Positions 1,570-10,999 of a DNA stretch of 12,084 nt are shown piece after piece; positions within the stretch are counted from its first letter, which is position 1, and the number at the start of each line of letters is the position of its first letter. Origin of the DNA: Pseudomonadota bacterium (GTDB lineage: Bacteria > Pseudomonadota > Alphaproteobacteria > Rhizobiales > Hyphomicrobiaceae). The stretch lies in assembly GCA_021813195.1 (NCBI GenBank), contig JAKALI010000061.1, forward strand, positions 1-12,084. The letters are read 5' to 3'. The notes under the pieces are model-generated. The model was given only the letters and a program-made list of their open reading frames with translations. It did no database searches and was not told the DNA's origin. A program made the position numbers and the translations under genes.

Positions 1570-3624
1570 TTGGCTCACAGTCGGAGATTCTCCAACACGG
1601 CGTTGATGCGCACCCAGCCTCACAGGCCTGGGCGGCGAGCGCACGCGGCTCAAGGCTTGCCGCATCTCTACCGAGGCGCGCGTGGCCGCGCGGGGCGCGC
1701 GGACGTGTTCGCCACCGACCATGCAGACGCTCACCACGGCCGGCGATTCCGCTGGCTCTTGAGCACCTGCCTTGCCGCGATCGTCGGCGCATTGGCCATC
1801 GTCGTGGTCATCTACGGAGCGACCGATCCACGTGACAGTGCCGGCGGTTTGATGCCGACGCTTCAACGGCTCCAGCATACGGCGATGGCACCGATGCCGG
1901 CGCCGTTGCGGCAGAACGACGGCTTGCGATGGGCCATCGCGAAAGCGGACCGGCTCCAGGTTACGACCGGCGCCATGTCCACCCGTTTCATCATTCACGA
2001 GACGCTCAAACAGCGCCGGAATGGTCGCGAGTACATTCACGCCAAGCCCTACGTTCGCATTCTTGCGCGCTTGGCCCCAGTGCCTCAGAGCTATGCTGAC
2101 GTTATCCCGCCGTTCAATCCCGTGAAGCTCTATGCTGAACCACGACCGAACGAAGCGGCGCCAGGTGAACTCGCCACCAGCTCGCGAAGCGACGTCAGCT
2201 TTCGCGTCGTCGAGCTCCTCGGCGGTTTTCTGCCCGGTGAAGATGGGCAGGAACTCGCAGCCGAAGAGGTTGATGAACTGGTCACGAGTGCGGCTGCCGA
2301 GTTTTCCGCGCCAGCCGGTGCCAGTGTTGTGCCTGACCCACTGTCTGGAACGATTGCCGCCACCAACCAAGACGAACCCAGCGCCACGAATTCCGCGACC
2401 CTAGAAACGCCGCCAAACACGACAAACCTGGTCAAATCCATACAAGAACATGAGGAAGACGACGATGCGTTGGAGGATGCTGAGGTTCGTGTCGTCACCG
2501 TGGGCCCCGGTGATACTCTGACGAAAATTCTCGTGGCGGCAGGCGCTGACACCTATCAGGTTCGCGAAATGCTCGAGCCGGCCAAGGCCATCTTCTCGGA
2601 AGATCAACTCGCTGTGGGCAACGAAGTGCACATTGCGCTCGTGCCTTCTCTGACCGATCCCAATCAACGCGAGCCGGTGCGCTTTTCCGTGTTCTCCGAC
2701 GGCCACGTTCATCGCGTGACGGTCCGCTTGAACTCGGCCGGCGAATTCGTCGCGAGCGCGGAGGCCAGTGGTGAGAAGTCTGCTCTGCGCAGCGCGCTGA
2801 AAACAGGCAGTCGCGATACGACATCCAGCCTGTATGCCAGCCTCTATCATGCTGCACTCGTGCAAAGTATGCCGACCGAGACGATCCAGCAGATCCTGCG
2901 CATCCATGCCTATGAAGCCGACTACCGCCGCCGCCTGCGCGCGGATGACAGCGCCGAATTTTTCTTCGATCTGAAGCAAGAAGGTGGCATCGACGGACCG
3001 CCGGGCGAATTGCTCTACACCGCGTTGTCGGCAGGCGGCGAAACGTCACGTTACTACCGTTTCCGTACGCCCGATGGGACCGTGGACTATTACGATCCTG
3101 ACGGCAACAATTCGCGCAAGTTCCTGTTGCGCAAGCCCGTGAGGGGCGACGATCTGCGGCTAACTTCGGGTTACGGCGTCCGCTTCCATCCGCTGCTCGG
3201 CGTGCGCAAGATGCACACGGGCATCGATTGGTCGGCACCGCCCGGCACCCCCATCATCGCGGCGGGCAACGGCACGATTGAGGAGGCCGGCCGCAAGAGC
3301 GCCTACGGCAATTACGTACGTATCCGACACGCCAACGGCTATCAGACGGCGTATGGGCACATGTCTCGCATCGCGCCAGGCATCGAACCGGGGGTCAAAG
3401 TGCGCCAGGGCCAGCTGATCGGTTACGTGGGCTCAACCGGATTGTCCTCCGGTCCGCACCTGCACTACGAAGTTCTTATCAACGCTCGCTTCGTTGATCC
3501 GTTGTCGATCCAGGTACCGCGCGAGCGCAAGCTCACGGGCCGCGAGCTCGCCGAATTTCATAAAGAGCGGGCGCGTATCGATGAACTCATGCGCCGCTCT
3601 CCCGTCGTCACCGCCAGCCGGTGA
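1570..3624 (+). CDS. Membrane-anchored M23 (LytM-type) peptidoglycan endopeptidase
   Basis: A 684-residue bitopic protein expected to cut peptide cross-links in periplasmic peptidoglycan. Order of parts: a basic N-terminal tail (1-57), one membrane helix (about 62-82, WLLSTCLAAIVGALAIVVVI), a low-complexity acidic and Ser/Thr/Pro-rich linker (about 85-300), an OapA/LysM-like domain opening with VTVGPGDTLTKIL (about 308-360), a Csd3-like middle domain (about 370-515), and a C-terminal M23 domain (about 530-640). All M23 zinc and catalytic motifs are present: HxxxD (H549, D553), YGHM with H597, and HLH (H630, H632), so the enzyme should be active. The overall plan matches MepM/Csd3-type proteins of Gram-negative bacteria. 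It stands alone, divergent from the rrn operon and followed by a 222-bp gap. The start is TTG at 1570 by its ribosome binding site; ATG at 1606 is the alternative and would leave the helix intact. Confidence 0.93.
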   Translation: MAHSRRFSNTALMRTQPHRPGRRAHAAQGLPHLYRGARGRAGRADVFATDHADAHHGRRFRWLLSTCLAAIVGALAIVVVIYGATDPRDSAGGLMPTLQRLQHTAMAPMPAPLRQNDGLRWAIAKADRLQVTTGAMSTRFIIHETLKQRRNGREYIHAKPYVRILARLAPVPQSYADVIPPFNPVKLYAEPRPNEAAPGELATSSRSDVSFRVVELLGGFLPGEDGQELAAEEVDELVTSAAAEFSAPAGASVVPDPLSGTIAATNQDEPSATNSATLETPPNTTNLVKSIQEHEEDDDALEDAEVRVVTVGPGDTLTKILVAAGADTYQVREMLEPAKAIFSEDQLAVGNEVHIALVPSLTDPNQREPVRFSVFSDGHVHRVTVRLNSAGEFVASAEASGEKSALRSALKTGSRDTTSSLYASLYHAALVQSMPTETIQQILRIHAYEADYRRRLRADDSAEFFFDLKQEGGIDGPPGELLYTALSAGGETSRYYRFRTPDGTVDYYDPDGNNSRKFLLRKPVRGDDLRLTSGYGVRFHPLLGVRKMHTGIDWSAPPGTPIIAAGNGTIEEAGRKSAYGNYVRIRHANGYQTAYGHMSRIAPGIEPGVKVRQGQLIGYVGSTGLSSGPHLHYEVLINARFVDPLSIQVPRERKLTGRELAEFHKERARIDELMRRSPVVTASR

Positions 3625-3836: not shown

Positions 3837-3840
3837 GGAG
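3837..3840 (+). promoter_or_regulatory. Ribosome binding site of the TIR-WD40 gene
   Basis: GGAG ends 6 nt before the ATG at 3847, supporting that start. I could not find a clear promoter in the 222-bp gap upstream; a TTGACT at 3807-3812 has no matching -10 at suitable spacing. Confidence 0.55.
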
Positions 3841-3846
3841 TGACGG

Positions 3847-6800
3847 ATGGGGATCCTCATAAGTCGTGTCCTGGAAACCAAACAACGTGATATTCCGATT
3901 CGATACCGGTACGACGCTTTCATCTCCTACAGTCATGCCGCCGATGGCGCACTAGCACCGGAAATTCAAAGACGCCTCAGCAGGTTCGCCCGCGCGTTCT
4001 GGCAGGCCTCAATGCCGATCTTCCGCGATGAAACTGGGCTCGAAATGACACCTCACCTCTGGCCGACCCTGCAGAAGCGGATCGACCAGTCGCGCACGTT
4101 TATTCTTCTGGCCTCGCAACGAGCGGCGCGATCGGAATGGGTTGCAAAAGAAGTGGAGCACTGGGTTGCAACGCGCGGCACGAACAACCTGCTAATCGTG
4201 CTGACGTCCGGTGAACTTCGCTGGCATCCCGTGACCAATGATTTCGACTGGGCAGCCACCGACAGCCTCCCGACGGTGCTGAAAGGCCATTTCCCGGTTG
4301 AACCCAAATGGGAAGACGCAAGGGCGCTGGTTTCTGCGGGCGCGCTCGTCGGTCACAATCCTGTTCTCGAAAAAATCGCCGCTTCGCTGTATTCGGCGAT
4401 AACCGGCCGGCCCCTTGAAGACGTGATCGGTGAGGATCTCACGAGAAAAAAGCGGGCGCGGCAGGCGCTCACCCTGGCAACACTTCTCGTTACCGGCGCC
4501 GTTGGATACGGCGGCTGGTCGAAATTCGAGTCAGAGAGGCGAATCAGCATCACAGCGATGCAGCAGTCTGCCATCGCCCAATCACGAACTTGGCACGACG
4601 ACGGCGATGCCAGCGCAGCGGCCGCCGCTATTCTCGATGCAATCGAAGTTAATCCGCAAATCGCCAACGAAGAATTGCACTGGCGGATGCTTAATGCTGT
4701 TCATGCCATTCATGAGTCTGCGATCCAGGCTCTCGACGCTGGGGTCACGCATCTTGCTATCGGACGAACGCGCGCCGTCTACGCCACTGCGACGCAAAGA
4801 AAGATCCAAATCTGGGATGGACACCAAGCTCGGGAGGCGACGGAAATCGCGCTTTCTGGCAGTATCCCGAGCAAACGAGATCGTGTCCTGGAACTGAACC
4901 ATGACGCGAGCCGCCTGCTTGTTCTCACCGACGACCAGCGAGTTACGATCTGGGACCTCGACGCTAGAAGGGCAAAGCAAGCGCAATCGCTGCCGTTAAA
5001 GAACAAGGGTCGATCCGCCCAATTCGATTCCAGCGGTGCGTATGTCGCAACCCTCGACGAAGCCGGGATTGTTTGCGTCTGGCCGATCTTGCAGGCGCAG
5101 ACGGATTGCCTGCGGCTCCACTTACCAGAAGGCCTTCCACGCGTCACAGCCATTGTCTGGCATCCGAGCGAGAACAAAGTGCTCGGTATTGCAGCGGATG
5201 GCTCGTTGCTCGGTTGGGACGCCGCGTCCGGTTTTCACATCCTGGGACCGTTGGCGCTAGGTCAATCAAGCGCTGCATCCGAATGGGATTTAGCCGTTGC
5301 CTCGGCAGGAGATGGAGATACAGTCGCCGCGTGGGTCGACGGGTCGGAGGGTCCCGCCGTGATCACGGCCGTCCCAGGCGCCTTGTGGAGCCTTAAGGAA
5401 GCAAAAATTGTCAAGCGCATCGAGATCGAGGAAGGCCGTAGGATTGGGGGGGCAGAATTTAGTCCCAATGGAAAAACGCTTCTCATTCGCTCAAGGGACC
5501 GCTCCCGGCTTATTGATACCCTCACGGGGAAAACGCGGGCTCATCTCATTGGTCATCAGTCGTACATCCGAGACGCTCGATTTAGCCCCGACGGCGCACT
5601 GATTGCCACGGCCTCCTATGATCGCTCGGTACGTCTGTGGGACGCCATGACAGGCGCTCCGCAACTCGTCCTACGCGGGCACCAGGACCGTGTGTTCAGA
5701 GTTGGCTTCAGGGCTGACGGCTGTCAACTCGTCAGCACGAGCGGTGACCACACATCACGGATCTGGACAATCGTGAGCGGGACCTGGCAGCGCCGATTGT
5801 CCGAGTTGCCGTGCGACGGTCGACCCACAACTGATACCACCTTATCTCGCTTGTGGATCCATGGTGCGAACTTCAATTCTAGGAATAATCTTATTGCAAC
5901 GGCCTCCGAAGATCGGCATGCGCGCGTCTGGGATATTGCGACCGCTAAACTGCTGAGCAAACTCCCGCAGCAGCCTGAGCCGGTCCTCGCCACGGCATTC
6001 AGCCCGGATGACGAATTCCTGGCTGTCGGAGAGGGAAAAACGGACGGTTCCACGGCGCGCTCGCGCGTACGCCTTTACGACTGGCGGGCCAAGCAGGAAC
6101 TAGACAGCGCAGAGGTCAAAGGCCGCGCGCGGAGCGTGGAATTCAGCCCGGATGGGCAACACCTGCTCGCCGCGACCGCGAACGGAGAGGCGCGCATCTG
6201 GCGGATTTCGGCGGGTCGTCGGCTCGAGGAACAGGCCGTCCTAAAACATGGGACAAATCCTGTCACCAGTGCCACGTGGAGCGCTGACGGCAAGCGAGTT
6301 GCTACGACAGCCACGGACAAACACGTCTGCGTCCACTCATTCCGCCCGGATGTGACCGATGCGACGTCACCCTTTGCTACGACTTGGACAACCCAGTGCA
6401 AAGAACTTGGTTGGATCGTCTACGGCGCAGCATGGAGCCACCGAGGAGAGCAACTCGCCGCCGTAGACGGTGCCGCCAACATCTGGGTCTGGCAAAACAG
6501 TCAGCTCGCAGGCGAGGCCAAGCTGCAACTTCTCGACGACCGGTACGCGGTGGACGTTGCCTTCAGCACGAGCGATAAGCAGATCATTCTTCGGCTCAAC
6601 GATGGATCGCTCATCATTCGTGATCTTGAGTATGGACGCGACGTCTTTTCCTTGCGGCCGCACATTTTGGTCACTGGGCTCGCCGTCTCACCAGATGGGG
6701 AGCAAATTGCGACGGCACATCGTGATGGATCGGTCCGTATTTGGCCTGTGCCAAGCGACCCATCCATGTTGTTGACGCAAACGCGATCAGGGCTTGCCCG

Positions 6801-6933
6801 CTGTCTCACATCAGCGCAGCGACGGCGGTACGGTACTGTGGGACAATCCACAGAGCGCTCTTTATGGTGCCACCAAAAATGGAGTGAGGAACGCCGGGAT
6901 GGGACTTATAAGGTCATGCCTCCGCTACCGTAA
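3847..6933 (+). CDS. TIR domain - transmembrane helix - WD40 repeat protein
   Basis: A 1028-residue protein. Residues ~20-165 form a TIR domain: DAFISYSH (23-30), a BB-loop-like RDETGLEMTPHLW, and SEWVAKEVEHW, whose E102 aligns with the catalytic glutamate (WVxKE) of NAD-cleaving TIR domains such as SARM1. A basic stretch (KKRARQ, ~201-206) precedes one hydrophobic helix (~207-222), then a helical linker (~225-290). Residues ~296-975 hold about 14-15 WD40-like repeats, for example SVRLWDAMTG and HARVWDIATAKLL, enough for two seven-bladed propellers; some repeats are degenerate (RLIDTLTG, RLYDW). The tail has RCLTSAQRRRY (985-995) and WCHQKW (1007-1012), which I associate with tails of bacterial WD40 sensor proteins. 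No Walker A/B or STAND NTPase separates the TIR from the repeats. By family analogy it may sense a stimulus with the propellers and hydrolyse NAD or signal with the TIR; this is inference. It stands alone, with no effector or partner gene next to it, and its GC looks lower than that of the following gene. Confidence 0.92.
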   Translation: MGILISRVLETKQRDIPIRYRYDAFISYSHAADGALAPEIQRRLSRFARAFWQASMPIFRDETGLEMTPHLWPTLQKRIDQSRTFILLASQRAARSEWVAKEVEHWVATRGTNNLLIVLTSGELRWHPVTNDFDWAATDSLPTVLKGHFPVEPKWEDARALVSAGALVGHNPVLEKIAASLYSAITGRPLEDVIGEDLTRKKRARQALTLATLLVTGAVGYGGWSKFESERRISITAMQQSAIAQSRTWHDDGDASAAAAAILDAIEVNPQIANEELHWRMLNAVHAIHESAIQALDAGVTHLAIGRTRAVYATATQRKIQIWDGHQAREATEIALSGSIPSKRDRVLELNHDASRLLVLTDDQRVTIWDLDARRAKQAQSLPLKNKGRSAQFDSSGAYVATLDEAGIVCVWPILQAQTDCLRLHLPEGLPRVTAIVWHPSENKVLGIAADGSLLGWDAASGFHILGPLALGQSSAASEWDLAVASAGDGDTVAAWVDGSEGPAVITAVPGALWSLKEAKIVKRIEIEEGRRIGGAEFSPNGKTLLIRSRDRSRLIDTLTGKTRAHLIGHQSYIRDARFSPDGALIATASYDRSVRLWDAMTGAPQLVLRGHQDRVFRVGFRADGCQLVSTSGDHTSRIWTIVSGTWQRRLSELPCDGRPTTDTTLSRLWIHGANFNSRNNLIATASEDRHARVWDIATAKLLSKLPQQPEPVLATAFSPDDEFLAVGEGKTDGSTARSRVRLYDWRAKQELDSAEVKGRARSVEFSPDGQHLLAATANGEARIWRISAGRRLEEQAVLKHGTNPVTSATWSADGKRVATTATDKHVCVHSFRPDVTDATSPFATTWTTQCKELGWIVYGAAWSHRGEQLAAVDGAANIWVWQNSQLAGEAKLQLLDDRYAVDVAFSTSDKQIILRLNDGSLIIRDLEYGRDVFSLRPHILVTGLAVSPDGEQIATAHRDGSVRIWPVPSDPSMLLTQTRSGLARCLTSAQRRRYGTVGQSTERSLWCHQKWSEERRDGTYKVMPPLP

Positions 6934-7444: not shown

Positions 7445-7528
7445 GATGGCTTTGTCGGCAGCTCAGCATCATTCCCGCGAGCGTACGAATACCCCAAGAG
7501 CTTTCCGGTTCCATCGCCCACCCGATTG

Positions 7529-7533
7529 AAGGA
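7529..7533 (+). promoter_or_regulatory. Ribosome binding site deciding the lplT-aas start
   Basis: AAGGA lies 10 nt before the ATG at 7544. A TTG at 7526 would add six residues but overlaps this site and has no Shine-Dalgarno sequence of its own, so ATG at 7544 is preferred. Confidence 0.6.
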
Positions 7534-7543
7534 CACCGTCCCC

Positions 7544-10500
7544 ATGCTGACCTCGCTTCTGACGGCGCGCCGTTTTGCCGGTCTCTTCTGGTGCCAGTTC
7601 CTGTCGGCGCTGAACGACAATCTGGTCAAGAACGCGCTCGTCATCCTGATTGTCCTGAAGCTCGGCGCGGCGGGTGGCGGATGGCTCGTCCCGTTGGCGG
7701 GCGCCGTCCTCGTCTTCCCGTTCTTCATCCTCTCCGGGCTTGGTGGCGCCCTCGCCGACCGCCTCGACAAAGGCGTTCTCGCGGAGCGCCTGAAACGCTG
7801 GGAAATCCCGGTCGCGCTCCTTGCGGGCGCCGGCTTCTATTTCAATTCTGTTCCGCTCCTATTCGCCGCGCTAGGCGGCTACGGCATCATCGCAGCGCTG
7901 TTCGGACCGATCAAATACGGCATCCTGCCGACAATCCTCGACAAACGTGAAATTTCAGCCGGCAATGCGCTCGTCGAGATGGGCACATTCGCGGCCATCC
8001 TGCTTGGCACCATCGGCGGCGGATTGCTCATCGCGCCCGAAGGTGCCTCCCCTTACTTGCCATTTATGGTGGTGGCCCTCGCCGTGCTATGCTGGCTTGC
8101 GGCAGTCTTCATCCCGCGCACGGGCGCTGCCGCACCCAATCTTGCCGTCGATTACAATGTTGTGCGCTCAACATTCGGCCTGCTAGCGGATCTCAAGTCC
8201 GATACCCGTTTGTGGACCGGTGGTCTCATCACGAGCTGGTTCTGGCTTGTGGGGGCGGCTGCGCTTGCCCTTCTGCCCGTGCTGCTCAATGGCGAGGCTG
8301 GTGGCGATAACACCGTCATCACGCTGGGTCTTGCCGTCTTCACAATCGGCATTGCCATCGGCTCGGTCTTCGCCGCGCGCGCGAGCCATCAACGCCCGAA
8401 TCTGGCGCTGGTTCCAATCGGTGCGGCCCTGATGGGGCTTGCTGCACTCGATCTGGCCTGGACGGCCTCCACGCTCGTCAAACCCGCTGCTGGTGTGGGC
8501 GCTTGGGACTTCCTGGCCACCTGGAGCGGTGCGCGTCTTTCGGCCGGATTGTTCGTACTTGCGCTGGCCGGCGGTCTCTTCATCGTGCCCGCGTTCGCGG
8601 CAGTCCAATTGTGGGCCGCAGAGGACCGCAAAGCGCGCGTCGTGGCTGCCTGCAACGTCCTATCCGCCGCGTTCATGGTCGCAGCGAGCCTGCTGCTGGC
8701 CGCCCTGCAAGTCGTTGGACTTGGCGCAGCGACGATGTTCCTGATCCTCGGCATCGCCAATCTCCTCGTCGTCGGACTGGTGCTGGCCGCCTGGGGTCGC
8801 GAGGGTGTCAAAGACGTCGCCCTGTTTCTGTTCCGCGTCTTCCTGCGCCTCGACGTCAAGGGTTACGAAAACCTTCCGGAACCTGGTACGCGCGCCCTTA
8901 TCGCGCCCAACCACGTCAGCTTCCTCGATGCGCCGTTGATGCACGCGATCATGCCTGGGCACGCGTGCTATGCCATCGATACCAACGTAGCCAACCGCTG
9001 GTGGGTGCGTCCGTTCTTAAAGCTTGCGCGCGTGTACACCGTCGATCCCACGAAGCCGTTGAGCACCCGTCATTTGATCAACGAGGTGAAGGCCGGTCAG
9101 TCGCTGGTGATTTTCCCCGAAGGCCGGCTCACCACGACCGGCGGTCTCATGAAAGTCTATGATGGGACGGCGATGATTGCCGACAAGGCCGACGCCATCG
9201 TCGTACCGGTCCGCATCGATGGACCCGAGCGCTCACCGTTTGGCTATCTCGATCGCCATCAGACGCGCCGCGCGCTGTTCCCCAAGACAACCGTCACCAT
9301 TCTACCACCCATACGTTTGCCGGTGGATCAAGCCTTGCGCGGAAAGGCGCGCCGTCACGCGGCGGGTGCTGCGCTCCAAGACATCATGGTGGATAGCGCG
9401 GTGCTGACGGCCAACCTCCATCAGACGCTTTTTGAGGCGCTTATTGAAGCGCGAGCAACCCGCGACACCGGCAATCCCATCATCGAGGATGCGCTCGGCA
9501 CCAAGCTCTCCTACCGCAAGCTCATCTTGGGTGCACAGGTGCTCGGCCGAAAGCTCAAGCCGCTCGCTCCGGAGGGTGCGGCCGTTGGCGTGCTCTTACC
9601 CAACGCCGCAGGCGTGGCCGTTACATTCTTCGCGCTGCAAACGATCGGCCGCGTTCCTGCCATGCTCAATTTCTCGGCCGGCACCCAGAGTATGGTGCAG
9701 GCGTGCACTGCGGCGAAAGTCGAGGTGATCCTCACCTCGCGCGCATTCGAGGAGAAAGCGAAACTCGGCGACGCCCTCGCTAAACTTGGCGAAATGGCAC
9801 GCATCGTTTATTTGGAAGATATCAAGTCCTCCATCGGTCTCTTCGACAAACTCCGTGGTCTTGCCCAGGGCCCTACGCCACAAGTGAAACGCCGGCCCGA
9901 CGATCCGGCCGCCATAATCTTCACCTCGGGCTCGGAAGGCACGCCCAAAGGCGTCGTGCTCTCCCACAAGAACCTCATCGCCAACGCGTTCCAGTGCCTG
10001 CACCGCATCGCCGTCAATGGCCGCGACAAGGTGTTCAACGTCATGCCGGTGTTCCATTCCTTCGGCTTGACGGGTGGGCTCGTTATGCCGCTGATCGGCG
10101 GCGTGCCGGTGTATCTCTATCCCTCGCCGCTCCACTACCGGATTGTCCCGGAACTCGTGTACGGCTCCAACGCCACCATCCTCTTTGGCACTGATACATT
10201 CCTCACGGGGTACGCGCGCACCGCACACCCGTACGACTTCCATCGTGTGCGTCTCATCGTGGCGGGAGCGGAAGCCGTCAAGGATCGTACGCGTCAGCTG
10301 TACATGGAAAAGTTCGGCGTGCGCATTCTCGAAGGCTATGGCGTTACTGAGACCGCACCAGTGCTTGCCATCAATACGCCGTTATCAAATAAGTCCGGCA
10401 CGGTGGGTCGCCTGGCCCCACTGATGGAAGCCCGCCTGGAACCGGTCGCAGGCATCCAGGATGGCGGACGACTGTTTGTGCGCGGCCCCAACGTCATGCT

Positions 10501-10999
10501 GGGATACATGCGAACGGACAATCCGGGCGTGCTGGTGCCGCCGGAAAACGGCTGGCACGATACGGGCGATATCGTCGCGATCGACCGCCAGGGATTCATC
10601 ACGATCAAGGGCCGCGCCAAGCGCTTCGCCAAGATCGCGGGCGAGATGGTGTCCTTGTCCGCGGTCGAAGCCTTGGCCGCTGAGCTGTGGCCTGGTCTCG
10701 TCACCATCGTCGTCTCAATTCCCGACGCGCGCAAAGGCGAAAAGCTCGTGCTGCTGACGACGGATGCCTCGCTCTCGCGCGAAGCGTTCCAGCGCCACGT
10801 CAGGGCAAAAGGACTATCCGAACTCAACGTGCCCGCCGAGATCCTCGTGGTTGAGAGCATTCCGCTGCTCGGCTCGGGAAAGCCCGATTATGTGAAAGCG
10901 GCGGCACTTGCCAAAGACAAGCTCGCCCAGCGGCCCGCGCGGCCTTGTGTGCTGATGGACGAACCGGCAATTCCGCCCGCCCCTAAAACCGCAGCCTGA
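7544..10999 (+). CDS. aas: Fused lysophospholipid flippase / acyltransferase / acyl-ACP synthetase (LplT-Aas)
   Basis: An 1151-residue inner-membrane protein with three joined activities of lysophospholipid salvage. Residues ~1-425 are an MFS-type multi-helix transporter resembling LplT (start FWCQFLSALNDNLVKNAL), which in E. coli flips lysophosphatidylethanolamine inward. Residues ~435-620 are a PlsC-type 1-acyl-transferase with HX4D (H457-D462) and FPEGR (524-528). Residues ~640-1140 are an AMP-forming acyl-ACP synthetase: P-loop-like IIFTSGSEGTPKGVVLSH (about 791-808), GYGVTET (from 931), a TGD motif, and a C-terminal GKPDYVKA with K1113 as the likely adenylation lysine. All key residues appear intact. 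E. coli has the same functions on two adjacent genes (lplT and aas); the fused form is known to me from alphaproteobacterial annotation. It follows a 610-bp gap with a candidate promoter and is followed by a 219-bp gap, so it is probably expressed alone or with the small frame at 7211. Confidence 0.93.
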   Translation: MLTSLLTARRFAGLFWCQFLSALNDNLVKNALVILIVLKLGAAGGGWLVPLAGAVLVFPFFILSGLGGALADRLDKGVLAERLKRWEIPVALLAGAGFYFNSVPLLFAALGGYGIIAALFGPIKYGILPTILDKREISAGNALVEMGTFAAILLGTIGGGLLIAPEGASPYLPFMVVALAVLCWLAAVFIPRTGAAAPNLAVDYNVVRSTFGLLADLKSDTRLWTGGLITSWFWLVGAAALALLPVLLNGEAGGDNTVITLGLAVFTIGIAIGSVFAARASHQRPNLALVPIGAALMGLAALDLAWTASTLVKPAAGVGAWDFLATWSGARLSAGLFVLALAGGLFIVPAFAAVQLWAAEDRKARVVAACNVLSAAFMVAASLLLAALQVVGLGAATMFLILGIANLLVVGLVLAAWGREGVKDVALFLFRVFLRLDVKGYENLPEPGTRALIAPNHVSFLDAPLMHAIMPGHACYAIDTNVANRWWVRPFLKLARVYTVDPTKPLSTRHLINEVKAGQSLVIFPEGRLTTTGGLMKVYDGTAMIADKADAIVVPVRIDGPERSPFGYLDRHQTRRALFPKTTVTILPPIRLPVDQALRGKARRHAAGAALQDIMVDSAVLTANLHQTLFEALIEARATRDTGNPIIEDALGTKLSYRKLILGAQVLGRKLKPLAPEGAAVGVLLPNAAGVAVTFFALQTIGRVPAMLNFSAGTQSMVQACTAAKVEVILTSRAFEEKAKLGDALAKLGEMARIVYLEDIKSSIGLFDKLRGLAQGPTPQVKRRPDDPAAIIFTSGSEGTPKGVVLSHKNLIANAFQCLHRIAVNGRDKVFNVMPVFHSFGLTGGLVMPLIGGVPVYLYPSPLHYRIVPELVYGSNATILFGTDTFLTGYARTAHPYDFHRVRLIVAGAEAVKDRTRQLYMEKFGVRILEGYGVTETAPVLAINTPLSNKSGTVGRLAPLMEARLEPVAGIQDGGRLFVRGPNVMLGYMRTDNPGVLVPPENGWHDTGDIVAIDRQGFITIKGRAKRFAKIAGEMVSLSAVEALAAELWPGLVTIVVSIPDARKGEKLVLLTTDASLSREAFQRHVRAKGLSELNVPAEILVVESIPLLGSGKPDYVKAAALAKDKLAQRPARPCVLMDEPAIPPAPKTAA

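Follow-up and report, generated by a model that had tools for sequence, protein, structure and literature searches.

Introduction

Animal Toll-like receptors are single-pass membrane proteins that hold a leucine-rich-repeat (LRR) sensor outside the cell and a cytoplasmic TIR domain acting as a scaffold. ThsB, the TIR protein of the bacterial Thoeris system, is not known to have a membrane or a propeller part. Here, we analyse an open reading frame (ORF; positions 3847-6933, + strand) in a 12,084-nucleotide stretch of DNA from a member of the Hyphomicrobiaceae (contig JAKALI010000061.1 of assembly GCA_021813195.1; hereafter, the window), whose 1028-residue product presents, in this order, a TIR domain, a membrane helix and two WD40 propellers. 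On balance, we favour its interpretation as a single-pass membrane TIR NADase receptor free of any NTPase, in which the N-terminal TIR would be cytoplasmic and the double propeller would serve as a periplasmic sensor. Such a receptor would resemble the animal ones in its single pass, outside sensor and cytoplasmic TIR, but differs from them in its reverse chain direction, in carrying WD40 repeats instead of LRR and in that their TIR is a scaffold.

SpbK, a TIR NADase of Bacillus subtilis, has a sensor domain of its own through which clustering switches on the TIR, according to PMC12847820. A receptor of the proposed kind would share these properties, whereas SpbK responds to a phage portal protein, and its domain summary in that paper comprises an N-terminal four-helix domain and a C-terminal TIR and no membrane helix. 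Lectin-type antigen sensors of some bacterial conflict systems have already been predicted to be periplasmic or outside; unlike the window protein, however, those described in PMC10907252 are lectins diversified by diversity-generating retroelements and borne on STAND or MoxR-linked proteins, with no direct joining of WD40 to TIR. No description of the TIR-membrane-WD40 architecture was found in our searches of the open-licence literature, an earlier description elsewhere being possible, and the main text of a survey of prokaryotic WD40 proteins (PMC5587647) holds no word beginning with TIR.

Domain layout and the putative catalytic glutamate

The gene comprises the following features, all on the + strand:

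3837..3840, +, ribosome-binding-like site GGAG, 6 nt upstream of the ATG (read directly from the DNA)
3847..6933, +, whole gene, TIR - membrane helix - double WD40 propeller, 1028 aa
3910..4341, +, TIR domain, residues 22-165
4150..4152, +, codon of E102, the putative catalytic glutamate in SEWVAKE (invariance; alignment to flax L6/L7 TIR)
4414..4599, +, single long helix, residues 190-251, connecting the TIR to the stalk (DSSP of both AlphaFold2 models)
4465..4521, +, predicted membrane-spanning part, residues 207-225, with RKKRARQ just before it (from the hydropathy and the charge of the flanks in relatives)
4711..5772, +, first WD40 propeller, residues 289-642
5074..5109, +, cysteine pair C410/C421 (13-sequence alignment, as for the other pairs)
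5722..5814, +, cysteine pair C626/C656
5782..6753, +, second WD40 propeller, residues 646-969
6328..6399, +, cysteine pair C828/C851
6754..6876, +, C-terminal tail, residues 970-1010, with cysteine pair C986/C1008

The combination of TIR, membrane helix and WD40 repeats, reported in an earlier note made from the letters of the sequence, is confirmed, with the domains, the helix and both propellers (about 15 blades in total) now located. In the AlphaFold2 models, the connecting helix of 62 residues is continuous; it would cross the membrane and then run on as a stalk. A weak PADLOC match to HamC2 (20.6 bits) lies over this helical stalk (residues 243-320; window 4573-4806).

The ORF contains a TIR fold, in which E102 is invariant in two alignments (45/45 and 65/65 sequences) and its region aligns with the S-x-W-x-x-x-E motif of the flax L6/L7 TIR, the glutamate of this helix being the catalytic residue in TIR proteins of such type. 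Because the 79 genome loci discussed below were collected with the pattern F-[ILM]-S-Y-S-H-[AS]-[AV]-D, the invariance of residues 25-33 in alignment A4, which included 64 of these loci, is partly built in; E102 lies outside that pattern. In a Foldseek search with the full model the propellers filled the best 50 matches, and residues 1-290 were therefore modelled separately; the best structural alignments of the TIR model were with the catalytic TIRs RUN1, SARM1 and SPARTA, and TIR structures of Toll-like receptors also appear among the results. The glutamate singled out in the earlier note as being of the catalytic type has thus held up, and the TIR appears to be of the NADase kind, with E102 as the putative catalytic residue. 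The PADLOC 'TIR-TM' model PDLC03016 was not among the four matches of the window protein at E<=0.1, and was matched by one neighbour ORF at another locus.

Between the TIR and the propellers, residues 166-300 have no Pfam match, no Walker motif is present, and the full-chain model (pLDDT 88) contains no NTPase fold. A hidden NTPase is rejected on these grounds, in line with the claim of the earlier note, and the STAND or AAA module looked for in residues 165-300 was not found. Nor does the protein fall into the STAND/NLR-type receptor class, in which an NTPase with Walker motifs separates effector and sensor.

Membrane topology and cysteines of the propeller half

Both the models and hydropathy agree with the single crossing proposed earlier, namely, one helix (residues 190-251) with a membrane part at 207-225, and, judged from sequence and models, the window protein has one membrane helix in the N-in orientation. 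Among its relatives, the hydropathy of the segment exceeds 1.6 in 118 of 120. Charge and cysteines were analysed in 197 of 199 sequences, L037 being dropped because S-x-W-x-x-x-E was absent from the expected range and a second sequence owing to a bar on X residues. The 12 residues that precede the hydrophobic segment contain more Lys and Arg than those following it in 157 members and fewer in 6. The N-in/C-out topology of the window protein is accordingly predicted on indirect but good support.

The distribution of cysteines points in the same direction. The window protein has none before residue 410 and eight from there on, forming four pairs that are gained and lost largely jointly across the 13 aligned sequences: C410/C421 are both present in nine and both absent in four, C626/C656 and C828/C851 are each both present in 11 and both absent in two, and C986 occurs in all 13, its partner C1008 in 11. 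Among the 188 members of the wider family with any cysteine after the segment, the count there is even in 145; for representatives sharing <40% identity it is even in 77 of 111 (p about 5e-5), compared with 104 of 207 cytosol-like neighbour ORFs taken as a control. Before the segment there is no preference for even counts (0 in 124, 1 in 61, 2 in 10 and 3 in 2 of 197 sequences). Within their last 75 residues, 113/197 members match a loosely defined tail pattern, C-x(18-27)-C, some of them by chance. Even cysteine counts are reportedly preferred by exported bacterial proteins (PMC7678975). Four disulfides in the propeller half are thus probable, and the most likely arrangement is one of disulfide-bonded propellers outside the cytoplasm; for their extracytoplasmic location taken by itself, we consider the prediction a likely one. 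What the earlier note had offered as a guess, propellers outside the cytoplasm, has in this way gained support that is independent, if indirect, in the charge of the flanks, the parity of the cysteine counts and the co-variation of the cysteine pairs.

A modular family with a patchy distribution

A protein search with residues 1-300 retrieved 463 proteins at E<=0.001; those listed were the 120 best. Among the matches listed, the TIR-membrane half is followed by C-termini of the WD40, TPR or unassigned types. Of 152 pattern matches in a scan of genomes, 145 were confirmed; 79 loci were kept, from records titled Actinomycetes, Nitrospira, Deltaproteobacteria, Bacteroidetes genera, Bryobacterales, and Alpha-, Beta- and other Proteobacteria. 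Across 13 close sequences, pairs share on average 60% identity in the TIR but 35-39% in the propellers, the lower value being what would be expected if the sensor diverges.

Exchange of modules is apparent on both sides of the helix. P0012, of the TPR type, shares the TIR-membrane half with the window protein (49% identity over 68% of residues 1-300), but TIR-TM (transmembrane) proteins such as this one end in a TPR or unassigned domain and have no WD40 repeats. Conversely, genes for TIR-nSTAND1-TM-WD40 proteins adjoin the TIR-membrane gene at L034 (73 bp), L075 (100 bp) and L054 (634 bp). Like the window protein, these neighbours and P0129 have an N-terminal TIR, a membrane helix with a positively charged N-flank, WD40 repeats and a C-terminal cysteine pair, but differ from it in an nSTAND1 NTPase that follows the TIR and precedes the helix (this domain was scanned for only at L034 and L075, and was precomputed for P0129). 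The TIR-membrane protein of L034 itself is absent from the list of tail-pair proteins. Since the membrane-propeller-tail half recurs in TIR-nSTAND1 proteins, the sensor half is common to NTPase-bearing and NTPase-free receptors, and the architecture of the window protein is therefore not a design that stands alone but one of a set built from modules. The view of the earlier note that the layout is peculiar is not borne out; the protein apparently belongs to a broad, NTPase-free membrane TIR type, uncharacterised as far as we found. The shared half also suggests that STAND-WD40 sensors and other bacterial WD40 conflict proteins may be extracytoplasmic. The search for TIR-nSTAND1 homologues listed mostly FGE-type C-termini, with WD40 members too few for a control with and without the helix, and a search with the tail (residues 935-1028) gave nine proteins and was uninformative. 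One relative, P0037, carries an FHA domain ahead of the TIR (FHA-TIR-TM-WD40), possibly indicating phospho-control on the cytoplasmic side.

The distribution of the TIR-membrane gene is patchy and accessory, sometimes multi-copy and sometimes plasmid-borne. The nearest host is G348, which has the best match, 72%, to the neighbouring gene Aas among 397 genomes sampled from its order; in its family, 4 of 103 genomes were positive at E<=1e-8 with residues 1-298 as the query. A class-wide sample yielded 0/385 at E<=1e-12, the same query being positive in other samples at E<=1e-8 or 1e-12. One actinobacterial family had 11 positive genomes out of 101, with up to 6 matches per genome. Six of 72,556 plasmid records matched, and phage genomes gave no match at E<=1e-5. 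In 15-18 kb stretches around Aas, none of 15 close relatives has a TIR, M23 or DUF2269 gene. M23, found in 10 relatives, lies on another contig in eight and about 1.6 and 0.4 Mb from Aas in two. The window gene therefore sits at a synteny break. The strictly vertical, conserved distribution that, according to the earlier note, would suggest a housekeeping role is thus not what the samples contain.

The conjugative plasmid pCMU01 of M. extorquens CM4 carries two TIR-TM-WD40 genes in tandem (L130, L136); the TIR of one is divergent and does not contain the exact motif. Genes for SIR2, an AAA ATPase, a 3'-5' exonuclease, an S8 peptidase and a metallophosphoesterase occur within about 16 kb of the pair, the AAA ATPase and exonuclease at 3-6 kb and SIR2 at about 15 kb. 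This stretch looks like a plasmid conflict island, although it is a single anecdote.

Proposed mechanism and alternative explanations

In the receptor that we favour, the 62-residue helix would lead from the cytoplasmic TIR through the inner membrane and onward as a stalk to the propellers, the periplasmic sensor. An extracytoplasmic ligand or envelope change would gather two or more receptors, the stalk helices would pass on the clustering, and the TIR domains would pair into a composite active site in which E102 cleaves NAD+, resulting in growth stop or cell death. Clustering as the trigger is taken from SpbK (PMC12847820), and clustering-activated NAD+ cleavage is what we infer by this analogy; as the ligand would cluster the receptors, a STAND NTPase would be unneeded for oligomerisation. 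If real, a TIR enzyme that lacks an NTPase and is driven directly from outside the membrane would give bacteria a counterpart of the Toll-like receptor layout and might allow a response ahead of the entry of phage DNA or a rival's toxin, by contrast with SpbK, which is switched on by the portal protein. It also raises a testable question, namely, whether a periplasmic propeller switches cytoplasmic NAD+ cleavage via a single helix. Tentatively, the family might comprise Toll-like-receptor-shaped immune or danger receptors widespread in bacteria, with an outside, disulfide-bonded, fast-diverging WD40 (or other) sensor, one rigid helix, a cytoplasmic TIR NADase, no NTPase and, in some lineages, multi-copy repertoires, which would detect what happens outside the cell, for instance the adsorption of a phage or contact with kin, before a genome enters.

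Several observations weigh against the periplasmic-sensor receptor. The membrane segment of the window protein itself is weak (mean hydropathy 1.17). Cysteine counts are odd in 34/111 representatives, and members without the tail pattern show modest parity only (48/75 even, p 0.02). Related sequences in these counts are not independent, and the parity control consists of mechanically called neighbour ORFs, 222 of 502 picked for low hydropathy. P0013 and P0014 have C986 but not C1008, and carry further cysteines at 985 and 1005. Furthermore, no conserved partner gene emerged from the clustering of 649 ORFs within 6 kb of the gene at 78 of the 79 loci, and defence-gene enrichment near the gene was not seen in a weak test of 128 near versus 140 far ORFs. 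The weak segment would suit a protein anchored to the membrane but wholly cytoplasmic, the segment being a tether or peripheral helix and the propellers scanning the cytoplasm for phage proteins like STAND-type sensors; so would the positive residues on both sides of the segment (mean 3.7 against 2.2) and the best-aligned solved propellers, which are largely eukaryotic and cytosolic or nuclear. We regard this as unlikely, given the strong segments of the relatives, the flank bias of 157 against 6, and the parity and joint gain and loss of the cysteines, a cysteine pattern for which selection in a reducing cytoplasm is not expected.

A receptor with direct NADase output also has to be set against two other kinds of output. 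The TIR could be a signal synthase like ThsB, making cyclic ADP-ribose or a similar molecule for an effector encoded elsewhere, as might be read from its matches to Pfam ThsB_TIR (30.2 bits) and, weakly, to PADLOC ThsB1 (best 19.6 bits). Yet no ThsA-type gene is recognised within the 12-kb window, so that Thoeris membership is not supported, and no effector gene was recognised among its four scanned ORFs, a distant effector being possible; neither the neighbour clusters of 78 loci nor the first 25 Pfam families of 128 near ORFs include a recurrent Thoeris-like partner. Direct NAD+ depletion is favoured for this last reason, and a signal synthase seems improbable. A receptor of envelope stress or contact that plays no part in defence, its output regulating the cell without killing it (by scaffold signalling, for example), would agree with the paucity of PADLOC matches nearby (14 families in 128 ORFs, vs 69 families in 140 far ORFs) and with the adjoining M23 peptidase and phospholipid acyltransferase genes. 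However, the invariant E102 and catalytic-type motif are unexpected for a scaffold, the distribution is patchy and sometimes multi-copy, and in relatives M23 and Aas neighbour neither each other nor such a gene; we consider this explanation quite doubtful. For the membrane NADase receptor, an anti-phage role is plausible, and the neighbour test gave it no support.

Neighbouring genes

The largest neighbour clusters span 10, 6, 6 and 6 loci, and no other among those listed exceeds three. All members of the 10-locus cluster come from actinobacterial records, and its single scanned member is SARP-type (BTAD). One 6-locus cluster contains nSTAND1, TIR-nSTAND1-WD40 and TIR-WD40 proteins; of the other two, one begins like an ABC transporter ATPase and one occurs in Actinoplanes-type records only. 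The defence test compared 128 of 343 near ORFs (<=3 kb) with 140 of 280 far ORFs (>=6 kb) by PADLOC at E<=1e-8, the ORFs being mechanical, <=1000 aa and randomly picked from 70 loci. This small sample gave no sign of the defence-island association raised earlier: the families near the gene have at most two ORFs each, and the 25 far families listed have one each, mostly matching methyltransferase models, so that perhaps few ORFs stand behind the 69 families.

The scanned neighbours in the window are the M23 peptidase, Aas and a DUF2269 protein. The located surrounding features are:

1-720, - strand, 5' part of the 16S rRNA gene (Rfam RF00177, 734.9 bits)
1570-3621, + strand, murein endopeptidase, M23, MepM-like
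7526-10996, + strand, acyl-ACP--phospholipid acyltransferase (Aas), MFS - acyltransferase - AMP-binding (PRK06814, 1644 bits)

Aas is up to 72% identical in relatives, but its surroundings differ. The 16S rRNA part is about 92% identical to plasmid-borne copies of Phyllobacterium, which agrees with a host that belongs to Hyphomicrobiales or stands close to them. In 3 of 10 relatives the M23 gene lies <=4 kb from the contig start, where an rRNA operon perhaps adjoins it too.
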